Below are positions 14,953 through 30,612 of a DNA stretch of 64,000 nt, piece by piece. Each line of letters opens with the position of its first letter. Within the stretch, counting starts at the first letter, position 1. The stretch lies in contig NZ_CP091786.1 in the NCBI RefSeq assembly GCF_022024015.1, positions 124,001 through 188,000 of the forward strand, given 5' to 3'. The notes beneath the pieces are model-generated. The model did no database searches, had not been told where the DNA came from, and saw nothing but the letters and a program-made list of their open reading frames with translations. The DNA is from Prevotella sp. E9-3 (GTDB lineage: Bacteria > Bacteroidota > Bacteroidia > Bacteroidales > Bacteroidaceae). The translations under genes were made by a program, and so were the position numbers.

Positions 14953-15681
14953 ATGCAAAAAAGGTCCGATATGAGCACATTGTCTAATGTGGAAACTGGA
15001 CGAGGCCAGGCCAATCCTCCGAGTGTCAGGGTTCTTCGAAGTATCGAAGCGACCGAAGGTCGATTAGCCCCTGATACCATCCCCGAAGCTAGAAGCGCAC
15101 AAACCGGGGTGTCGGTAAAATATGTACCTACACCTGACAAGAGTTGGTATGTGTTCCGCGCCTCTTACGGCAGAGAAGATAGGGCATCGGACTATATCGT
15201 AGAAGACGGCACATTTGTATATATCGCCAAGCGCTATGTTCGCAAGACGGTAAACGGTAAACAAAAGAAGGTTTTGGAGACTTTAATCCCGAACCTTCTT
15301 TTCGTATATTCCACTGAAGAAAAGGCTGAGGAGTATGTTAAGAACACACCAGCCCTGTCCTTTCTCACCTATTACTACAATCATTTTGAGTTGGACAAAG
15401 ACCAGAAGAATCCTCCATTGACTGTTTCCCGTAAGGAAATGGAGAACTTCATCATTGCCACCTGCAACCAGAGTGAGCATCTGAAGTTTGTCACCGAATC
15501 GCAGTGCCATTTCAAGGGCGGCGAGACGGTGATGGTCATCGACGGCATGTTCAAGGGAGTCGAGGGAAGGGTCGCCCGGGTATCAGGACAACAGCGGGTG
15601 GTCCTTTCTTTGTCAAACGTCGGACTCATTTCTACGGCTTATATACCAACCGCCTTTCTGAGAATGAAGAATGAAAAGTGA
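14953..15681 (+). CDS. UpxY-type NusG-like transcription antiterminator
   Basis: A NusG N-terminal domain starts at about residue 63 (S-W-Y-V-F-R-A-S-Y-G-R-E-D) and a KOW-like C-terminus is seen (F-K-G-G-E-T-V-M-V-I-D-G-M-F-K-G-V-E-G). UpxY proteins let RNA polymerase read through the long capsule operon. The first ~52 codons are unlike the family and share the leader's GC-rich composition; starts at 14971 (ATG) or 15109 (GTG, V-S-V-K-Y) are possible. The stop overlaps the next gene by 11 bp. First gene of the locus, as is usual for UpxY. Confidence 0.85.
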   Translation: MQKRSDMSTLSNVETGRGQANPPSVRVLRSIEATEGRLAPDTIPEARSAQTGVSVKYVPTPDKSWYVFRASYGREDRASDYIVEDGTFVYIAKRYVRKTVNGKQKKVLETLIPNLLFVYSTEEKAEEYVKNTPALSFLTYYYNHFELDKDQKNPPLTVSRKEMENFIIATCNQSEHLKFVTESQCHFKGGETVMVIDGMFKGVEGRVARVSGQQRVVLSLSNVGLISTAYIPTAFLRMKNEK

Positions 15682-17254
15682 AAAATTTACTACCGCAACA
15701 GGTAATTTAACTGTTACATCACCGTTGCTGCCCGACCTCGAAGAGTTTCACGGACTGCTGAAGGAGATTTGGGCGAGCAAGTGGGTAACGAACATGGGAC
15801 AGTTCCACCGTCAGTTGGAACGTGCCCTTGCCGAGTATCTGAAAGTGCCCTACATCAGCTTGTTCACCAACGGAACCCTGCCGCTCCTGACGGCCCTGCA
15901 GGCACTACGTATCAAGGGCGAGGTGATTACCACACCCTACAGCTTTGTTGCCACCACCCATGCCATCTGGTGGAACGGCTGTACGCCGGTGTTTGTGGAC
16001 ATCGAGGAAGACACCTGCGGCATCGACCCAGACAAAATTGAAGCCGCCATTACGCCTCGGACCACAGCCATCATGCCTGTGCATTGCTATGGCCATCCGG
16101 TGAAGATGAAGCGCATACAAGAGATTGCTGACCATTACGGTTTGAAAGTCATCTATGATGCTGCCCATGCCTTTGGGGTGGAATGCCTCACCCCCGACCC
16201 CTCCCCCGTAGGGAGGGGAGAAAGTCTCGGGAGTGGCGCTTACCGAGAAACAGCCGCAGAGGCGGATTATCCATTCTTGAAGGAGCGTGCTCGGGAGATG
16301 CGCAAGAAACCAACGCAAGCCGAGGAGGTCTTATGGCAAGCACTGAGAAATGAAGGTATAGGCTATAAATTTCGCAGACAGCATCCTTTTGGAGAGTACA
16401 TCGCTGATTTTATCTGTTTTGAGACATCTGTCGTTATCGAAGTCGATGGCGGTTATCATCAGACTCCCGAACAAAGTAATTCGGATAAGCTACGCGATAT
16501 CTTTTTCAGGAAAAAAGGATTTGATGTATTACGTATCTCCAATGACGAAGTCCTCTTTAATTTCGACCAAACTATTTCGCGTATCAAAGACTATCTAAAG
16601 GACTTCCCCCTACAAGGGGGACAGAGGGGGGCTTGGACCTCTGTTCTTTTGGCGGGCGATATGAGTACCCTTTCATTTCATGCCACCAAAGTGTATAACA
16701 CGCTGGAGGGAGGTGCCTTGATAGTACATGATGAGGAAACCAAGAAGCACATTGACCACCTGAAGAACTTCGGGTTTGCAGGAGAGACAGAGGTGGTCGC
16801 ACCCGGCATCAACAGCAAGGTGGACGAGGTGCGCTGTGCATACGGATTGCTGAATCTGAAGCAGGTGGATCATGCCATCGCCCATCGGCAGATGGTGGCA
16901 CAGCGGTACCGTGAGGCACTTCGAGACGTTCCTGGCATCCGTTTCTTTGACGACATGCCGGGTGTCAGACACAACTACAGTTATTTCCCTGTTTTTGTCA
17001 ATGCCGCGGATTATGGCATGACGCGCGATGAACTCTATTTCAAGTTGCAAGAACAGGGCATCTTTGGCAGAAGATACTTCTATCCGCTCATCAGCACTTT
17101 CAATACTTATCGCAGTCTGCCGTCCGCAGTCCCTGCGAATCTGCCTGTAGCCACGAAGGTTGCAAACGAAGTAATTTGCCTGCCCATGCACCACGCGCTG
17201 AGTGAGGATGATATTGAAAGAGTTGTGAGTGTAGTGAAAAATCCCAAAAAGTAA
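15671..17254 (+). CDS. DegT/DnrJ/EryC1 aminotransferase interrupted by an in-frame DUF559 nuclease domain
   Basis: A 527-aa chimera. Residues 1-172 and ~322-527 together form an ordinary ~380-aa PLP-dependent sugar aminotransferase: N-terminal S-K-W-V-T-N-M-G, D-A-A-H-A-F-G-V-E for the PLP ring, and S-F-H-A-T-K340-V-Y-N-T-L-E-G-G with the Schiff-base lysine. Between G-V-E-C and V-L-L-A-G-D-M-S-T lies ~148 residues containing a complete DUF559 (Vsr-like) endonuclease domain: K-K-P-T-Q-A-E-E-V-L-W, K-F-R-R-Q-H-P-F-G, Y-I-A-D-F-I-C, V-I-E-V-D-G-G-Y-H. The reading frame is open throughout. Whether the aminotransferase still folds is unknown. It would supply a 4-amino or 3-amino deoxysugar for the polysaccharide. 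Confidence 0.9.
   Translation: MKSEKFTTATGNLTVTSPLLPDLEEFHGLLKEIWASKWVTNMGQFHRQLERALAEYLKVPYISLFTNGTLPLLTALQALRIKGEVITTPYSFVATTHAIWWNGCTPVFVDIEEDTCGIDPDKIEAAITPRTTAIMPVHCYGHPVKMKRIQEIADHYGLKVIYDAAHAFGVECLTPDPSPVGRGESLGSGAYRETAAEADYPFLKERAREMRKKPTQAEEVLWQALRNEGIGYKFRRQHPFGEYIADFICFETSVVIEVDGGYHQTPEQSNSDKLRDIFFRKKGFDVLRISNDEVLFNFDQTISRIKDYLKDFPLQGGQRGAWTSVLLAGDMSTLSFHATKVYNTLEGGALIVHDEETKKHIDHLKNFGFAGETEVVAPGINSKVDEVRCAYGLLNLKQVDHAIAHRQMVAQRYREALRDVPGIRFFDDMPGVRHNYSYFPVFVNAADYGMTRDELYFKLQEQGIFGRRYFYPLISTFNTYRSLPSAVPANLPVATKVANEVICLPMHHALSEDDIERVVSVVKNPKK
16186..16633 (+). mobile_element. DUF559-encoding insertion element within the aminotransferase
   Basis: The insert begins near CCTCACCCCCGAC (16186) with the hairpin CCCCTCCC-CCGTA-GGGAGGGG (16198-16218) and ends with CCCCCT-ACA-AGGGGG (16606-16620) followed by CAGAGGGGGGC. 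The DUF559 frame lies between them. Edges are estimated from where aminotransferase homology stops; a CCTC near both ends (16186 and about 16638) could be a short duplication. There are no transposase or intein motifs. Confidence 0.75.
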
Positions 17255-17275
17255 AAGACAATAAAGAAACGCATT

Positions 17276-18718
17276 ATGCTTTTCAATTCTCTTGAGTTTC
17301 TTATTTTCCTGCTTATAGTATTCCTGCTCTATTGGTTCGTTTTTTGTGGACGACGATGGCAAAACCTATTGGTAGTCGTTGCGAGCTACGTATTTTATGG
17401 TTGGTGGGACTGGCGTTTCCTACTGCTGATAGCCTTGACTTCGCTTTGTAGCTATGGAAGTGGCAGGTTTTTGGAACACTATGAGGGTCAACGACGGAAA
17501 CAACAGTTGATAAGCGCACTAAATATCGTGCTGAACCTCGGCATTCTCGGCGTTTTCAAGTACTACAACTTTTTCGTTGAGAACCTGGATGCGCTATTCG
17601 GAACTATAGGATGGCATTTAGACTGGGGGACGATGAACATCATTCTGCCCGTCGGCATCAGTTTCTATACCTTTCAAGCACTTAGTTATACGATTGATGT
17701 CTATAAGAAAAAGTTGCCGGCTACCCATGACATAGTAGAGTTCTTTGCTTATATCAGTTTCTTCCCGCAGTTGGTGGCAGGACCTATTGAACGGGCAACG
17801 AATCTGCTGCCCCAGTTTCAGCGGCAACGCCACTTCGACTATGCCAAGGCCGTGGATGGCATGAGGCAGATGCTTTGGGGATTCCTGAAGAAAATGGTTG
17901 TTGCCGATAATTGCGCAACAGTAGTCAACGACTTTTATCCGCAATATTCAGAACTTCCAGGAATAACGCTTCTCCTTCTTGGCATTCTGTTTACAATTCA
18001 GGTCTACTGCGACTTTTCTGGCTATTCGGACATAGCCATCGGTTGTGCGCGGTTGTTCGGCTTCAATCTGATGCGCAACTTCAACATCCCCTTCTTCTCG
18101 CGAAGCGTGCCTGAGTTCTGGCGACATTGGCATATTTCGCTGACCACCTGGTTTCGTGACTACGTTTTCTTCCCTCTCGGTGGCAGCCGGTGCAGCCGAT
18201 GGAAAACCGTCCGTAACGTATATATCGTCTGGGGCATCAGCGGCCTGTGGCATGGCGCCAACTGGACCTTTGTCTGCTGGGGACTTATCCATGCCACTCT
18301 GCTTGTTATCTACACACTGTTAGGCATCAATACCAAATATAAGAATACAGTGGCATACGACCGCTATCTGCCAAGCATCAAAGAAACATTGCAAATGGTA
18401 TTGACATTCCTCCTTTTTGCCATGAGCATGATCGTCTTCCGTGCCGAAAACATGGGGCAGGCAGTTGACTATCTGACGGTCATGGTAACCAATAAGTTTT
18501 TTGATGCGACAATGCTTCAGGGGAAACAACCTTTGTGCTTCGCCCTGTTGCTTCTTAGCGTAGAATGGCTGCAAAGAGACAAACTACACGCATTGCAGTT
18601 CACGGACATAAAGCCTTTCAAATACAGATTTGTCCGTTGGAGTGTATATTACGTCATTCTATTGGTCATATTCAAATACGCCGGTTCAAGCCAAACATTT
18701 GTATATTTTCAATTCTGA
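17276..18718 (+). CDS. MBOAT family O-acyltransferase (AlgI-like)
   Basis: A 480-aa polytopic membrane protein with the MBOAT signature: F-F-P-Q-L-V-A-G-P-I-E-R, D-F-S-G-Y-S-D-I-A-I-G, F-W-R-H-W-H-I-S-L-T-T-W-F-R-D-Y and S-G-L-W-H326-G-A-N-W-T-F with the catalytic histidine. These proteins pass acetyl groups across the inner membrane for O-acetylation of exported glycans. The next gene encodes an SGNH-like protein, the usual partner that completes transfer, so the capsule repeat unit is probably O-acetylated. Confidence 0.93.
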   Translation: MLFNSLEFLIFLLIVFLLYWFVFCGRRWQNLLVVVASYVFYGWWDWRFLLLIALTSLCSYGSGRFLEHYEGQRRKQQLISALNIVLNLGILGVFKYYNFFVENLDALFGTIGWHLDWGTMNIILPVGISFYTFQALSYTIDVYKKKLPATHDIVEFFAYISFFPQLVAGPIERATNLLPQFQRQRHFDYAKAVDGMRQMLWGFLKKMVVADNCATVVNDFYPQYSELPGITLLLLGILFTIQVYCDFSGYSDIAIGCARLFGFNLMRNFNIPFFSRSVPEFWRHWHISLTTWFRDYVFFPLGGSRCSRWKTVRNVYIVWGISGLWHGANWTFVCWGLIHATLLVIYTLLGINTKYKNTVAYDRYLPSIKETLQMVLTFLLFAMSMIVFRAENMGQAVDYLTVMVTNKFFDATMLQGKQPLCFALLLLSVEWLQRDKLHALQFTDIKPFKYRFVRWSVYYVILLVIFKYAGSSQTFVYFQF

Positions 18719-29334: not shown

Positions 29335-30612
29335 ATGACAAAAATGAAATCGATGAAAATTCCTTTCTCACCTCCTGATATGAGTGAGGAAGAGGCAAAA
29401 GAAGTAAGAGAGGCTATATTGTCTGGATGGATTACGACAGGGCCGCGAACAAAGAAACTGGAGGCACAGATATCAGAATACGTTGGGACTGTTAAAGCAG
29501 TTTGTCTGAGTTCGGCAACAGCAGCCATGGAGATGATGCTCCATTTGCTGGATATACAACCGGAAGATGAAGTAATCGTTCCAGCATACACCTATACGGC
29601 TACGGCCTCAGTTACACAACATGTGGGTTGCCGGTTGGTCATGGTGGATAGCCAGAAGGACAATGTTGAGATGGACTATGAGCAGCTGGAGCAGGCTATC
29701 ACGGAGAAAACCAAGGTAATCATGCCAGTGGATATTGCAGGCATCGTGGCAGACTATGACAGGGTGTATGAAATTGTAGAGCGGAAAAAGAGCCTGTTCA
29801 GACCTGCCAACGCGCTGCAGGCGAAGATAGGCAGAATTGTTGTGACGGCTGATTGTGCCCATTCATTTGGTGCTGTACGAAAGGGAAAGAAGGCTGGCGC
29901 CATCGCTGATTTCAGCGCATTCAGTTTCCATGCAGTGAAAAACTTCACTACTGCTGAGGGGGGTGCTCTGACATGGAAATTGCCTTTCGGGAATGATATT
30001 GTACCGACTGATGTTGATTATATGCCAACTGTGCCGAAGATAGAAGATGAAACTTGGAATGAGATGCTGTACAGAATTTCCCAACTGTTCAGCCTGCATG
30101 GACAGAACAAGGATGCTCTAGCCAAAACAAAGGCCGGTATGTGGGAATACGACATCATCGGCCCTTGGTATAAATGTAACATGACGGACATCATGGCATC
30201 TCTTGGCTTGGTGCAGATGCGGCGTTATCCCAAGATGTTGGAGAGAAGACAGGAGATTGTGGCTCGCTACAATGCCGCACTCGACGGTCTGAATGTGGCT
30301 GTACTGAATCACAAGGATGCGGAGCATTGTAGTTCGCATCACTTGTATATGGTTCGCCTGCCGGGTAAGAGCCGCGAGGAGGTGAATCGGGTGATGGAAC
30401 AGATGGCAGAACGAGGTATTGCCACGAATGTACATTTCAAACCACTGCCGATGATGACGGCATACAAGACACTGGGTTTTGATATTGCTGATTATCCGAA
30501 TGCGTACCACCTGTTTGAAAATGAGATAACACTGCCATTGTACACCCGGCTCACCGATGAGGAAGTGGACTATGTGATAACTAACTTCGTAGACGTCATC
30601 AGGGATTTGTGA
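29335..30612 (+). CDS. DegT/DnrJ/EryC1 family sugar aminotransferase
   Basis: A 425-aa PLP enzyme without interruption: P-P-D-M-S-E-E-E near the start, V-P-A-Y-T-Y-T-A-T-A, T-A-D-C-A-H-S-F-G-A binding the PLP ring, and the Schiff-base lysine in S-F-H-A-V-K-N-F-T-T-A-E-G-G. The reaction is transamination of a nucleotide 4-keto- or 3-keto-sugar. It is the natural comparison for the interrupted paralogue at 15671-17254: here only about ten residues separate the two motifs. It shares GTGA with the next start. Confidence 0.92.
   Translation: MTKMKSMKIPFSPPDMSEEEAKEVREAILSGWITTGPRTKKLEAQISEYVGTVKAVCLSSATAAMEMMLHLLDIQPEDEVIVPAYTYTATASVTQHVGCRLVMVDSQKDNVEMDYEQLEQAITEKTKVIMPVDIAGIVADYDRVYEIVERKKSLFRPANALQAKIGRIVVTADCAHSFGAVRKGKKAGAIADFSAFSFHAVKNFTTAEGGALTWKLPFGNDIVPTDVDYMPTVPKIEDETWNEMLYRISQLFSLHGQNKDALAKTKAGMWEYDIIGPWYKCNMTDIMASLGLVQMRRYPKMLERRQEIVARYNAALDGLNVAVLNHKDAEHCSSHHLYMVRLPGKSREEVNRVMEQMAERGIATNVHFKPLPMMTAYKTLGFDIADYPNAYHLFENEITLPLYTRLTDEEVDYVITNFVDVIRDL

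Follow-up and report, generated by a model that had tools for sequence, protein, structure and literature searches.

The window analysed here, a stretch of 64,000 nucleotides from the single 3.73-Mb contig of Prevotella sp. E9-3 (a genome with many relatives in one genus, referred to below as G000), contains an open frame of 527 codons in which a DUF559 nuclease domain lies within an enzyme of the DegT family (Table 1). A sequence-only reading had described the ends of this frame as a DegT enzyme enclosing a DUF559 domain, and both the open reading frame and Pfam confirm the description: the DegT_DnrJ_EryC1 match is split into two stretches around a DUF559 (PF04480) match at residues 204-309, with an E-value of 5.8e-31 and a score of 107 bits, compared to a gathering score of 20.6. 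The insert size of about 148 residues given earlier agrees with alignment to empty orthologues, in which four codons (V-D/N-G-E) stand in the place of the insert for a net difference of 148 codons. Its position between the aspartate segment and the Schiff-base lysine segment was also correctly placed, D163 being the first residue of DAAHAFG and K340 the lysine within SFHATKVYNT. The paralogue downstream is indeed intact, matching DegT and not DUF559 in Pfam. Solved relatives are available for both halves of the fusion (2po3 and 3hrl).

Table 1. Features of the fused frame and of the comparison gene, in window coordinates.
Feature	Position	Strand	Evidence
Whole fused frame, DegT-DUF559-DegT, 527 aa	15671..17254	+	ORF list; Pfam
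DegT/DnrJ/EryC1/StrS enzyme, N-terminal part, ending ...DAAHAFGVE	15671..16183	+	Pfam; orthologue alignment
Inserted element, 152 codons, replacing about 12 nt (4 codons) of the empty loop	16184..16639	+	Comparison with empty alleles L007-L010, L263, L264
5' end arm, GCCTCACCCCCGACCCC plus hairpin; encodes CLTPDPSPVGRG	16184..16220	+	Same arm elsewhere in genome; folding
DUF559 nuclease domain (PD-(D/E)XK, Vsr-like)	16280..16597	+	Pfam; column alignment
3' end arm, inverted; degenerate hairpin CCCCCTTGTAGGGGG and AAGCCCCCC end	16603..16639	-	Alignment; folding
DegT C-terminal part with Schiff-base lysine K340	16640..17251	+	Pfam; residue mapping
Intact DegT paralogue without insert, comparison only	29335..30612	+	Pfam

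Alignment of the inserted domain shows that the E, D, E-x-DG and H columns, which we take to be catalytic, are kept, while two other near-invariant columns are altered, from L to F and from F to I. In an AlphaFold model the DegT blocks have pLDDT values mostly of 64-97, with a few lower; the insert reaches only 32-64 on a 19-row alignment, so that the model is uninformative regarding the nuclease. Hairpins had been proposed at both ends of the insert. The 5' stem (16198-16205 pairing with 16211-16218) folds better than shuffled sequences (z -2.75), but the candidate at the 3' end (about 16605-16621) does no better than shuffles (z -0.56).

An assembly slip is an unlikely origin for the insert, since the genome is a single contig and inserts are present at the same DegT codon in two further genomes, G141 and G374, each likewise listed with one contig. 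An intein or intron is unsupported, there being no Pfam match to a Hint domain in the fused frame and no Rfam match anywhere in the window; as far as sequence can tell, the frame is unspliced. A megablast search of positions 15000-18700 against PLSDB, for a plasmid home, gave no match.

Occupancy of the DegT site was assessed across the genus, where 66 of 398 genomes have a DegT match at E 1e-60 and 59 of these, counted by hand, hold an orthologue (at least 69% identity) spanning the insertion site. The nuclease is present in three of the 59, namely G000, G141 and G374; in the remaining 56 the match crosses the site unbroken. The loop of close orthologues consists of ten residues, E-V-(D/N)-G-x-S-x-L-x-x, and the empty loops displayed have this length save for three of 23-28 residues that do not resemble hairpin peptides. 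A DUF559 search of 42 fetched DegT loci matched only that of G374. The empty sites that the sequence-only reading had suggested seeking are thus present in close relatives. In the metagenome genome of a Bacteroidaceae bacterium (L263) the two DegT parts are 93.8% and 91.5% identical to those of the window, and in that of Xylanibacter ruminicola SIG140 (L264) identity is 97.7% over the first 171 residues and 88.9% over the rest; both are empty. A third metagenome genome (L265) carries a hairpin arm alone at this position, and such hairpin-only insertions had previously been missed.

The host parts of G000 and G141 are 87.7% identical in nucleotides and 92.5% in amino acids, yet the nucleases at the shared codon are only 43% identical in amino acids and their arms differ. 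With two nuclease lineages in similar host alleles, either the DegT codon was filled at least twice or the cargo was exchanged. In a quick tree the nucleases of G141 and G374 (L067 and L243) form one branch (SH-aLRT 99) with that of a third locus, L068, and the nuclease of the window falls outside it. L068 sits in genome G140 in a protein unrelated to DegT; its host part, guessed by eye to be an ATP-grasp enzyme, has no Pfam match at E 1e-8, and that guess was dropped. Comparison of these alleles shows an insertion polymorphism, one codon filled by unrelated lineages and one lineage present in two unrelated genes. The insert in the window looks like a recent mobile insertion rather than an old fusion.

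Filled and empty alleles are also seen in leucyl-tRNA synthetase (LeuRS), where the gap between two motifs flanking a loop of the editing domain is 16 residues in 20 of 29 loci (L184-L212). A pair of alleles 98% identical over 290 residues has 177 residues here in G113 and 16 in G157. Six further loci (L188, L190, L198, L204, L206 and L211) have 20-63 residues, with hairpin-like peptides and no nuclease, at the loop. DUF559 was found in two of 38 LeuRS loci, both already known. In the coding sites, DegT and LeuRS, 12-16 nt present in the empty loop are missing from the filled alleles, a loss that departs from textbook homing.

A match to the etfA region is found in 146 genomes, and the downstream junction was sampled in 30 loci, those most closely related to the window's genome; three of them, G000, G141 and G074, contain DUF559. 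The filled junction of G000 reads AAATAAG-element-TAATTATGG, that of G141 starts AAGTAAG and relatives read AAATAATTATGG. This is a clean insertion, with a possible 3-bp duplication of TAA suggested by the junction sequences; elsewhere, no target duplication is evident by eye in the arms inspected. The nucleases of G000 and G141 are 98% identical here. Nine of the 30 loci have a junction of 11-15 bases, 15 have other inserts and four, including G074, are unreadable as far as the next gene. The G074 nuclease (L369) matched in two frames and is possibly decaying. The small inserts downstream of etfA vary between genomes (L350-L379), as if at an insertion hotspot; by eye these include ORFs of about 200 bp and four-helix-bundle-like and GxxExxY-like genes.

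Comparison of nuclease loci more widely reveals the architecture to which the hairpins belong. DUF559 is present in 121 of 200 genus genomes, and 80 loci, all selected for DUF559, were fetched from about 160 matches listed. The first 20 were chosen mostly for long frames (L077 and L079 among them coming from other families of the order) and the next 60 mostly by E-value, some matches, including three other elements of the window's genome, being skipped. An inverted repeat was sought in 420 bases on each side of the nuclease and accepted if it outscored the best of 20 shuffles by more than 4. By this measure 70 of the 81 loci (the 80 fetched plus the window, all chosen for DUF559) have inverted arms. 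Similar hairpins, which had been suggested as something to seek elsewhere, are common at these loci, and what had not been recognised is that the hairpins of the window are the degenerate ends of a widespread inverted-repeat element. The window copy is itself among the 11 loci that fail; lacking arm symmetry, it may be dead.

The arms are 25-83 bases long and the elements 437-915 bp, with 66 of 70 falling within 440-750 bp. Most arms begin A(A)GCC or ACCC and have a nested hairpin inside, for example CCCCTCCC..GGGAGGGG. The two arms of one element often match almost perfectly (45/45 in L092, 43/43 in L125); those of separate elements are dissimilar. Arms are GC-rich and encode linkers rich in Pro, Gly and Ser, the content of these residues being 52% compared to 34% in shuffles and 23% in random stretches. 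The idea that arms are arranged to be free of stop codons was discarded: 42 of 129 have no stop in any of the six frames, compared to 67 of 645 random stretches, but the same holds for 225 of 645 shuffles, and composition explains the excess.

Most fetched copies lie between genes or at gene starts rather than inside genes. Interior, in-frame copies number 13 of the 80 fetched loci besides the window, which, the loci being non-random, is not an unbiased rate. Their hosts are LeuRS (four, two of them from other families of the order), epimerase (two), AAA helicase (two), DegT (two: L067 and, in L076, a second paralogue 35% identical), ABC-F, MazG and the L068 protein. Fusions at gene starts involve IspF, SufD, guanylate kinase, amino-acid kinase and SpoU, and other elements occupy gaps between the genes of operons. 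Pfam, run on one member per group with common flanks, supplied the names LeuRS, epimerase, ABC transporter (ABC-F by eye), MazG, DegT, AAA helicase, IspF (as YgbB), SufD, guanylate kinase, amino-acid kinase, SpoU and glutamate synthase; etfA, korAB, argC, dapF, ABC permease, HsdR/M, MetH and PurL were named by eye. Inspection by eye of a korA/korB-like junction (L080, L081, L085, L089 and L111) suggests that the upstream protein takes its C-terminal tail, and the downstream protein its N-terminal tail, from the element, and that stop and start codons overlap around the nuclease ORF.

Across the phylum, DUF559 occurs in 170 of 296 genomes and, among the matches listed, a good share lies in frames of 1000-1480 codons. 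Thirty such loci examined by eye include LeuRS (two), HsdR (four), HsdM, MetH and PurL, several again flanked by Pro/Gly/Ser-rich stretches. In four phylum genomes (L327, L329, L333 and L342) DUF559 appears by eye at a similar place in an HsdR-like protein.

Thirteen insertion sites are each shared by at least two loci and together cover 56 of the 81 elements. On a nuclease tree of 82 rows (L243 included, 57 rows in shared sites) the shared sites need 17 changes, compared to a minimum of 12 and a mean of 41.5 for shuffled sites; none of 200 shuffles was as low. Nuclease lineages appear, from this tree, to be tied to sites, a pattern also compatible with vertical descent, and two lineages share the DegT site. 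When loci of one site are compared, host identity rises with nuclease identity at korAB (rho 0.80) and etfA (0.56); the correlation is weak at argC (0.32) and absent at ispF (-0.03) and at LeuRS (0.14, from four rows). The within-site pattern suggests a mixture of inheritance and movement. Site-bound lineages, the correlated divergence at some junctions and the near-identical etfA nucleases of G000 and G141 are what would be expected if nuclease domains had been recruited long ago, inherited vertically with their hosts and lost in most lineages. We regard that history as improbable in general, given the sparse filling of DegT orthologues, the nearly identical LeuRS pair differing by the insert and the ordinary sequence in most empty loops read. 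As the main reading an old stable fusion, which had been named as what would overturn a mobile origin if junctions were conserved and mobile copies absent, is rejected in view of near-identical empty alleles and of two lineages at one codon.

Three comparisons among the nucleases of L067, L068 and L243 give amino acid identities of 83-85%, exceeding the nucleotide identities of 73-75%; dN is near 0.1, and dS could not be computed (-1), which is taken to mean saturation. Amino acid identity above nucleotide identity, together with the dN and dS values, indicates that purifying selection seems to keep the nuclease. Selection of this kind might reflect a domesticated function in which the fusion serves its host, for instance in defence or in mismatch repair of the Vsr kind; copies in HsdR- and HsdM-like proteins (names by eye) throughout the phylum would fit such a role, as would a Caulobacter DUF559 protein which, in the part of the report consulted, is linked to cytosine methylation (PMC12907096). 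Nevertheless, the hosts are unrelated housekeeping genes, DegT, the only widely surveyed site, is rarely filled and PADLOC gives only a marginal match (DpdF, 1.3e-4), so that we consider domestication very improbable.

The hairpins extend well beyond the nuclease loci. With up to three mismatches, the arm pattern has 48 copies in the window's genome and the reversed pattern none. Ten convergent pairs less than 600 bases apart, and no divergent pairs, were found there by hand, along with six same-strand neighbours within 40 bases that resemble nested copies. Eight of the ten pairs were read: one is a DUF559 element, three enclose a short stretch that no frame crosses, and the other four fall within open frames, dapF-like, glutamate-synthase-like (two) and ABC-permease-like, whose bracketed portion reads as host protein of roughly 30-80 residues. 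The idea that these nuclease-free pairs in open frames are plain MITEs was rejected, the DNA between reading as host sequence. The host-bracketing pairs lie outside the window at G000:C1:61401-61636, 65399-65672, 67511-67685 and 2010443-2010667. Among 26 sequences of the GltB bracket, scored by hand, 10 have both loops filled or rewritten, one has only the first and 15 have neither (Fisher 2e-6, without kinship correction and with very short changes in some of the ten); for a second bracket the figures are four, six and 14 (p 0.02). Often, though not in every case, the two hairpins of a pair seem to act as a unit that encloses a host segment. A further family of short repeats within proteins may be represented by small in-frame inserts containing PLGSSKNxQ, which were seen in genes resembling, by eye, those for GDP-mannose dehydratase and fucose synthase (L005, G000:C1:2651536-2654760).

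The exact core CACCCCCNNCCCCTC occurs in 129 of 200 genus genomes, its reversed control in few. Core counts follow strong DUF559 matches (best E under 1e-15; 111 of the 200 genomes) with rho 0.60 and medians of 13 and 0, or rho 0.40 and medians of 7 and 0 after subtracting two arms per nuclease, all without correction for kinship or incomplete assemblies. Four or more hairpins are present in 79 of 111 strong-DUF559 genomes and in 21 of 89 others. A role of the RAYT-type Y1 transposase in moving the hairpins is unsupported: hairpin counts hardly follow it (rho 0.14, p 0.046), Y1 matches are absent from the window's genome and the exact core is absent within about 1.5 kb in all 30 Y1 loci, compared to 26 of 80 DUF559 loci, the stretches of the latter being longer. 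Seventeen of the 111 DUF559 genomes have no hairpin of this core, and 11 of the 89 others have at least ten, four of them at least 20 (66 in G125). Those four hairpin-rich genomes, the hairpin-only inserts at the LeuRS and DegT sites and the preponderance of host-like or frameless DNA among the eight pairs read would all suit independent REP-like hairpins moved by another enzyme or by recombination, with DUF559 as cargo caught between two of them. Such a passenger role for the nuclease appears rather unlikely to us, as nuclease lineages are bound to sites and no alternative enzyme was found, the comparison having covered Y1 transposases, which are absent from the window's genome, although the latter argument is weak for loci selected by DUF559.

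Probably, then, the insert is a homing-like nuclease element that is not spliced and has REP-like ends. The earlier suggestion of a mobile nuclease reading frame is upheld as regards mobility and the lack of splicing by empty alleles in close relatives, related copies elsewhere and the absence of Hint and Rfam matches. Mobility is well supported by comparison of alleles, and a proposed scheme would account for cleavage, for copying and for what the arms do. Each element of the family would consist of a hairpin arm, a DUF559 nuclease gene and the same arm inverted, inserting at gene-internal loops (there read through in frame, unspliced), at gene starts or between operon genes, and the Pro/Gly/Ser linkers encoded by the arms may allow host and nuclease to fold side by side, so that the element could spread through proteins and leave them intact. 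Each nuclease lineage would recognise its own conserved gene site and cut an empty allele in the presence of foreign or sister DNA; repair would then copy the element in, and rare jumps to new sites might occur via the hairpin ends. A broader and more tentative reading, somewhat less probable than its negation, is a 'nuclease REPtron', in which inverted hairpin pairs mobilised by DUF559 would set bracketed DNA, whether the nuclease itself or a host segment as in dapF and gltB, in frame into genes without splicing. Such an entity could be the autonomous partner that RPE, CGTC repeats and similar orphan palindromes inside genes lack.

The existence of filled and empty alleles in genes as important as that for LeuRS makes movement directly testable, and the bacterial group concerned has cultivable members. 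The elements illustrate how a protein can acquire an entire domain at once, and they caution that enzymes annotated as DUF559 fusions may be selfish insertions. Open full text, a body that leaves most subscription journals and bioRxiv outside, yielded no description of DUF559 elements of this kind.

Among known systems, the REPtron is a RAYT (Y1 transposase) gene flanked by inverted REPs. The present elements share with it a gene between inverted hairpins (in 70 of 81 loci, the window copy failing) and hairpins elsewhere in the genome, but the enzyme there is an HUH Y1 transposase of the RAYT type and here DUF559 of the PD-(D/E)XK class. Homing endonucleases, which include Vsr-like EDxHD enzymes, are alike in being small nucleases with sporadic occupancy of conserved genes, in site-bound lineages and in a nuclease apparently under selection; the elements differ in having no intron or intein, in being read through in frame, in their inverted hairpin ends and in the small target loss at coding sites. 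The stand-alone DUF559/Vsr-like protein 3hrl, a lone 104-residue chain named endonuclease-like, has the same domain by sequence, embedded here in a host protein. Rickettsia palindromic elements (RPE) and intragenic CGTC-type REPs are described as short palindromes placed in frame in unrelated protein genes, commonly as inverted dimers (PMC10969869, PMC3733652), and the CGTC repeats seem to lack a dedicated transposase (PMC3733652). Both resemble the present elements in placing short palindromes in frame inside unrelated proteins, but as far as the consulted parts of PMC10969869 and PMC3733652 go those repeats contain no gene, whereas here a nuclease gene lies between the arms. In-frame palindromes have long been known from the Rickettsia elements, some without a known mover, and here such an architecture carries a nuclease; a nuclease-bearing counterpart might bear on the transposase gap of the CGTC repeats. 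The element fits the REPtron, the homing gene and the RPE/CGTC repeat each in part: in layout it resembles REPtrons, in population pattern homing genes and in its life inside proteins RPE and CGTC repeats.
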